Shown: piece after piece, positions 52,218 through 53,145 of the stretch
Position numbering within the stretch: the first letter of the stretch is position 1
Layout: every line of letters begins with the position of its first letter
DNA from: Agromyces marinus
GTDB lineage: Bacteria > Actinomycetota > Actinomycetes > Actinomycetales > Microbacteriaceae
Length of the DNA stretch: 64,000 nt
Direction: 5' to 3'
NCBI RefSeq assembly: GCF_021442325.1
Contig: NZ_CP087879.1
Coordinates: 1,178,001 to 1,242,000, forward strand
Made by a program: the position numbers and the translations under genes
The notes under the pieces: model-generated
Database searches by the model: none
What the model saw: the letters and a program-made list of their open reading frames with translations, nothing else
What the model was told of the DNA's origin: nothing

Positions 52218-52430
52218 CTACCCGAGCATCAGGCGTGCGGCGGCGTGGGTGCGCGCGTTGGCTTCGGCCGCTTCGCGTGCCGCCGATCGCTCGGCGAGGA
52301 CCCGAAGGATCCGCTCGCGATCGGTGCGGCGCACGGCGCGCCGGCGGCCCCATCTCGCGAGGGCGAGCCCCGCGCGGACGGCCAGGCCTGAGACCCGGGT
52401 CGACGCGGGGGAGACGGTGAGCGTGTTCAT
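52218..52430 (-). CDS. small basic protein coupled to the ArsR-type regulator
   Basis: A 70-residue Arg/Ala-rich helical protein with no domain recognised. Its ATG overlaps the regulator stop codon (ATGA), so it is translated with the regulator. It might be an accessory factor of the regulator or a peptide; function unknown. Confidence 0.6.
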   Translation of the reverse strand: MNTLTVSPASTRVSGLAVRAGLALARWGRRRAVRRTDRERILRVLAERSAAREAAEANARTHAAARLMLG

Positions 52431-53083
52431 GGCTGCTCCGTTTCGGCGGGGTCGGCTGCCTGCCCGCGAACCAGCGGGAAGGCGTTGACGTGGATCTGCA
52501 CGGGGCGCGATCCGGGCGACGGCGTGCGCTTGTACGCGTCGATGTACTTCTTCAGCACGGCGTCGATGTCGGTCACGAGCCCGTGCAGCTGGTCGGGGGT
52601 CAGCGTGAGGTTGATCGTGTCGGAGGTCGCGACGTCGAGCCAGTCGCTGCCGAACACCTCTTCGCCCGTGGTCACGAACTCGCGGAAGTTCTGGTCGCGC
52701 GAGCGGAACCACTCGTCTTCGACGAGCCGCACCGCGAGCCGCTCGGCGCTGCCCTGCGGCAGGCTTCGCGCGTCGGGGATCGCGATCGAGCCCGGCCGGC
52801 GCTCCCACCAGCGCTCGCGACCCGTGCCGCGGCCCGTGACCTCCTGCACGAGACCGGCCTTCGCGAGCTGCCTGAGGTGGTAGCTCGTCGCCCCGCTCGA
52901 CTCGCTGAGCCGCTCGGCGAGGCCGCTCGCGGTGGAGGGGCCGTACGTCGAGAGCTCGTCGTAGATCTGCACCCGCAGCGGGTGCGCGAGGCTCTTCAGG
53001 CTCTCGCTGGAGAGCACGTGGTCGATGCCCGGGTGGCGGGTGCTGCTCGGCCAGGTCTCGGGGTCGTTCGTCTGCTCGTCCAT
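52427..53083 (-). CDS. ArsR/HTH_20-type transcriptional regulator
   Basis: A 218-residue winged-helix regulator. The HTH (LAHPLRVQIYDELSTYGPSTASGLAERLSESSGATSYHLRQLAKAGLV) is near 30-77; the C-terminal 120 residues form a ligand-binding domain of unknown specificity (no Cys metal site). The start ATG is 6 nt after TACCTT, which with a TTGCAA -35 at 17 bp makes a clear leaderless promoter lying inside an array of five TTTGCA half-sites, indicating autoregulation. Ligand unknown. Confidence 0.85.
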   Translation of the reverse strand: MDEQTNDPETWPSSTRHPGIDHVLSSESLKSLAHPLRVQIYDELSTYGPSTASGLAERLSESSGATSYHLRQLAKAGLVQEVTGRGTGRERWWERRPGSIAIPDARSLPQGSAERLAVRLVEDEWFRSRDQNFREFVTTGEEVFGSDWLDVATSDTINLTLTPDQLHGLVTDIDAVLKKYIDAYKRTPSPGSRPVQIHVNAFPLVRGQAADPAETEQP

Positions 53084-53085
53084 GG

Positions 53086-53145
53086 TGCAAAGGTACCTCT
53101 GCAAAGAAAACTTTGCAAGGGTTTGTTTGCAACGATGTGTTTGCA
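53086..53145. promoter_or_regulatory. 14-bp-phased operator array and promoter of the ArsR-type gene
   Basis: Half-sites TGCAAAG at 53086 and 53100, CTTTGCA at 53111, GTTTGCA at 53125 and 53139. Same-direction copies are exactly 14 bp apart; the two sets face each other across 4 bp (TGCAAAG-aaaa-CTTTGCA). The regulator's -35 (TTGCAA, 53113-53118), 17-bp spacer and -10 (TACCTT, 53090-53095) lie in the array. The AT-rich block stands out in this genome. Confidence 0.75.

Follow-up and report, generated by a model that had tools for sequence, protein, structure and literature searches.

Gapless arrays of short operator units are known for ribbon-helix-helix repressors, in the met boxes of MetJ and the heptads of CopG and omega, where the units are 7–8 bp long. 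The closest described systems among winged-helix proteins use a single palindrome. Rv2034 of Mycobacterium tuberculosis is an ArsR/SmtB-type autorepressor whose site, two 8-bp inverted repeats 4 bp apart, lies over the start of its own gene (PMC3338718). LugJ of Staphylococcus lugdunensis, dimeric in solution, represses an operon for export and immunity, and lugdunin releases it; its dimer has been modelled on Kfla_6221 (PDB 4G6Q), and a second shifted band is seen at high LugJ (PMC11980582). Single-palindrome ArsR-type autorepressors and gapless ribbon-helix-helix operator arrays are both known; an array of this kind for a winged-helix ArsR-type protein appears to be new, since no account of one was found in the open-access literature, where searches with the motif strings returned unrelated papers.

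The locus described here, within a 64,000-nucleotide stretch of Agromyces marinus DNA (the window), resembles each of these systems in part. As with Rv2034, a winged-helix dimer would repress its own gene from a site over the gene start, and the dyad is of similar build. Whereas the Rv2034 site is one palindrome, the arrays considered here consist of three to six dyads that adjoin one another, at a fixed phase to a leaderless promoter. LugJ is likewise a winged-helix regulator with a helical C-terminal part, a likeness by structure that comes through the common template 4G6Q; unlike the present array, its operator is a single palindrome, its target is a divergent operon, and there is no 14-bp array. 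The resemblance to MetJ and CopG/omega is one of operation only: short tandem units without gaps, variable in number, on which dimers would sit side by side. The 14-bp dyads do abut at a fixed step, as contiguous units of the MetJ kind do, but the protein is of the winged-helix type, the unit is a 14-bp dyad, and the phase is locked to the promoter. A MetJ-type ribbon-helix-helix fold was not found in the regulator; profile and model both show a winged helix.

The array (positions 53086 to 53145) has five TGCA cores on an exact 14-bp grid, at 53086, 53100, 53114, 53128 and 53142, 60 bp in all; its assignment draws on the sequence, a chance estimate and conservation in relatives. Because each core is itself palindromic and is used by both orientations, five cores make eight half-sites, or four complete abutting 14-bp dyads of the form CAAAG-N4-CTTTG, each enclosed by neighbouring cores. 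Dyad 1 (53088–53101, CAAAGGTACCTCTG) holds the minus-strand −10 element. Dyad 2 (53102–53115, CAAAGAAAACTTTG), in the promoter spacer, is perfect, with 0 mismatches to TGCAAAGNNNNCTTTGCA, and dyad 3 (53116–53129, CAAGGGTTTGTTTG) and the promoter-distal dyad 4 (53130–53143, CAACGATGTGTTTG) each depart from the dyad pattern at 2 positions. The minus-strand reading of the region is TGCAAACACATCGTTGCAAACAAACCCTTGCAAAGTTTTCTTTGCAGAGGTACCTTTGCACCATG. An earlier, sequence-only reading had described five TTTGCA-type half-sites in two facing sets, with a step of exactly 14 bp within each orientation. The half-sites exist and the step agrees with the sequence, but five is an undercount: the sequence holds four complete dyads, each of them a unit enclosed by two cores. 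The same reading was right that 14 bp is not one helical turn; at 10.5 bp per turn the step amounts to 480°, so that neighbouring units are turned by about 120°.

TGCA occurs 174 times in the 64-kb window, and at this density chance would be expected to place five cores on a 14-bp grid 1e-8 times in the window and 5e-7 times in a 3.2-Mb genome. The genome-wide search for single dyads that had been suggested was run with TGCAAAG-N4-CTTTGCA at up to two mismatches, and the only matches were the array's own four dyads. No second copy of the array was found in this genome, and a search of it with TTGCAA-N8-TTGCAA gave a few scattered single matches, not above the control level.

That the array extends over the −35 element, spacer, −10 element and leaderless start of the ArsR-type gene, as proposed from the window, is supported by the relatives. 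On the minus strand the −35 hexamer TTGCAA (53113–53118) is also the third operator core, and the −10 hexamer TACCTT (53090–53095) stands 6 nt before the ATG. Among 146 distinct arrays, with 3 to 7 cores each, 136 have TAnnnT in either of two places, separated by 14 bp, as measured from the last core. Of these 136, 127 have an exact TTGCAA 17 bp upstream of the TAnnnT, and between −10 and ATG there are 6 nt in 99 arrays and 7 nt in 25. It follows from these counts that one operator core is the −35 element and that the −10 element begins 4 nt after the next core. The arrays differ in core number, in the number of upstream units and in their extension across the −10 element and ATG; the promoter phase is constant in most of them. 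A last dyad with TATCTT or TACCTT, the counterpart of dyad 1, precedes the ATG in most Agromyces relatives. The transcript of the regulator gene is predicted to be leaderless.

The gene itself (52427–53083, minus strand, ATG at 53083) encodes an ArsR/HTH_20-type regulator of 218 amino acids with the recognition helix GATSYHLRQL. The protein scores above the curated cut-offs of Pfam HTH_20 (46.2 bits, cut-off 27) and HTH_5 (34.1 bits, cut-off 22), and at 43.9 bits falls under the cut-off of 55 for NCBIfam HTH_metalloreg. An alignment-based model (78 relatives, pLDDT 90.5) has a winged helix at the N-terminus and long helices in its C-terminal part. CzrA, CadC and ArsR are among its top structure matches. 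The best full-length match is 4G6Q, Kfla_6221 of Kribbella flavida, with 165 residues aligned, Z 10.8 and a Foldseek E of 3e-5, a match limited to 19–20% identity, an rmsd of 5–6 Å and a TM-score of 0.46–0.47 by query. The regulator lacks cysteine, as do 152 of 170 relatives, which makes a thiolate metal site unlikely. A metalloregulator assignment was rejected on the missing cysteines and the score below the NCBIfam cut-off, with cysteine-free metal sites still conceivable. The input is more likely a small-molecule ligand, which would be received by the C-terminal part.

The ATG of a 70-amino-acid ORF (52218–52430, minus strand) overlaps the regulator stop codon in the sequence ATGA, and this ORF is probably the second gene of the regulator operon. 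It has no match in Pfam or NCBIfam. The same small ORF is present in many Agromyces, often at the same −4 offset, and a relative that occupies the same place in many Agromyces has the pattern GLxLxxWGxRRAxRRTDR. At five loci (L058, L059, L107, L114 and L116) the regulator is followed by a gene for an MFS-type transporter, which replaces the small ORF or lies a little way from it; MFS transporter genes neighbour the regulator in Microbacterium and relatives.

Absence of the array from relatives that have the gene had been named in the earlier reading as a finding that would refute it; in Agromyces, as among wider relatives, the array accompanies the gene in most cases. A regulator ortholog (at least 39% identity) was found in 51 of 60 Agromyces genomes. 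At least three exact cores on the grid occur in 48 of these 51 and in 0 of the 9 genomes that lack the ortholog (Fisher p 1.5e-8), counts that, like the other locus counts given here, come from relatives of common ancestry and are not independent events. The remaining three genomes with the ortholog have a shortened grid or cores with single substitutions, and a reversed-pattern control within the genus was nearly empty. The array does not belong to the AsnC-type gene upstream: the preceding gene is AsnC-like at 17 of 43 arrays and another gene at 26, and the array stays with the regulator either way.

The association extends well beyond the genus. A search by DNA pattern found four cores on the grid in 96 of 398 family genomes, representing 35 of 85 genera, as well as in further families of the order; in both cases the reversed-pattern control was nearly empty. 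At almost all inspected loci found by DNA pattern alone the regulator adjoins the array, the exceptions being repeats of other kinds. Conversely, 80 loci were picked by protein alone, from Agromyces, Microbacterium, Arthrobacter, Brevibacterium, Leifsonia, Cryobacterium, Kribbella, Cellulosimicrobium and others. In 70 of them three or more cores fall exactly on the grid, and in most of the others the grid is there with its outer cores mutated. More distantly related members of the class have versions with two or three dyads. Normally there is a single array per genome, located at the regulator gene. An unrelated 14-bp TGCA grid, TGCAACTCGAAGATTGCACTCTCGATGGTGCAACTCTAAGGTTGCA, lies between a Fic-like and a glyoxalase-like ORF in one genome (L100:1501-1546, G034), and also at G014:C8:1154408, without the regulator described here.

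Paralogs offer a view of the same geometry with a different motif. In a sample of 20 related Agromyces regulators at about 30% identity, 19 have two abutting 14-bp dyads of the form ACAAGA-N2-TCTTGT, and 14 bp is the best of the spacings from 10 to 20. The recognition helix of these paralogs reads GSVSYHxxTL or similar, as against GATSYHLRQL in the ortholog; at residues 71–72 the ortholog has RQ and these paralogs xT. The odd paralog (L125, G040:C130:20600-23100) combines GATSYHLRRL as its helix with a run of four TGCA cores whose step is 13 bp. Paralogous HTH_20 regulators with ACAAGA-N2-TCTTGT dyads over their promoters include L123 (G000:C1:796421-796984, plus strand) and L124-L142. To judge from these comparisons, the subfamily has the 14-bp geometry in common, and its sequence recognition has shifted together with the helix. 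The covariation of motif and recognition helix points to the encoded protein as the one that binds, and we rate it the best evidence to that effect.

In our view the array is very probably the operator of the regulator itself. It is also likely, if somewhat less assured, that this is an autoregulatory operator in the fuller sense, at which dimers of the protein encoded directly downstream would pack on abutting dyads and repress their own synthesis. One winged-helix dimer would most likely bind one 14-bp dyad, with the consensus CAAAGA-WW-TCTTTG between two TGCA cores; the half-site spacing of about 9 bp within the dyad is that expected if such a dimer reaches into two successive major grooves. 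Several dimers could then occupy neighbouring dyads, four here and two to six in relatives, each shifted by 14 bp and rotated with respect to the one before, and would in this way climb round the helix. Cooperative packing in a spiral that wraps the DNA is a part of the proposal for which we see slightly better than even chances. The array is locked to the promoter in phase: one core is also the −35 element (TTGCAA), the −10 element lies at a fixed distance past the next core, and the transcript is predicted to begin at or next to the ATG. Since the array is in phase with the promoter, bound protein would exclude RNA polymerase, and the regulator may repress its own gene and the overlapping small gene until a ligand releases it.

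The choice of the dyad as the unit depends on the ends of the arrays. A dimer might instead be centred on the cores, at TTTGCAAA, a good palindrome that is also better conserved than any other string in the array. The outermost cores, however, retain their inward half only: outside the first core the CTT positions drop to 20–40%, and outside the last core the AAG positions drop to 10–28%, against 73–99% conservation on the inward sides. Because the outer flanking half-sites are unconserved and the inward ones conserved, the unit is taken to be the dyad between cores, and a core-centred dimer seems improbable. It could also be supposed that the array is a simple tandem repeat with no function, as slippage can create tandem arrays and the number of units varies. 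Yet the central bases of adjacent units are 39% alike, compared with 40% for unrelated arrays, so the units are not recent duplicates, and recent tandem duplication was rejected. Cores and promoter phase are, moreover, conserved across many genera, and reversed-pattern controls are nearly empty. This conservation refutes a functionless repeat in practice, and we give it almost no weight.

A more serious alternative retains the autoregulatory operator and dispenses with the chain of dimers: one or two promoter dyads would do the work, and the others would be spare or low-affinity sites that raise the local concentration of the protein. In the window, dyads 3 and 4 are degenerate and fit the consensus less well than do dyads 1 and 2, and some relatives have just two clear dyads, so that a long array is not essential; the variable number of units also fits this explanation. 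Against it, of about 340 pairs of adjacent cores counted around the arrays, 317 keep a step of exactly 14 bp, a regularity that separate sites would not need, and the same abutment returns in paralogs with another motif. Independent sites of this kind are therefore judged rather unlikely, though they deserve more consideration than any other alternative. It is a good deal harder to credit that the array is bound by some other factor, perhaps a nucleoid protein or an unrelated regulator, with the ArsR-type gene as no more than its target. The link between array and encoded protein is drawn from sequence, which leaves some room for such a binder. But array and gene share the same pattern of presence and absence, there is normally one array per genome and it lies at the regulator gene, and a different recognition helix in the encoded protein goes with a different motif; the chance that an unrelated protein is responsible is accordingly slight, a little below that of the core-centred dimer.

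Packed, autorepressing dimers thus remain the preferred explanation for the Agromyces array. Whether it can be extended to a large branch of ArsR/HTH_20 regulators in the Actinomycetes is, in our estimate, an even question. In such a branch a leaderless self-promoter would be repressed by a spiralling chain of dimers, one per 14 bp and three per four turns, its geometry fixed, its recognition rewritten between paralogs and its −35 element supplied by an operator core. If the dimers do pack as the sequence implies, this would be an ArsR-type operator design that is undescribed in the open-access literature, variable in length, rigid in step and promoter phase, and distributed over many genera. 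The natural series of operators with 2 to 6 units could be used to measure how the number of units affects the steepness of autorepression, and the two paralog groups, equal in geometry and different in motif, may provide a route to the recognition code of the winged helix. The array would also make it easy to pair many unstudied actinobacterial regulators with their operators.
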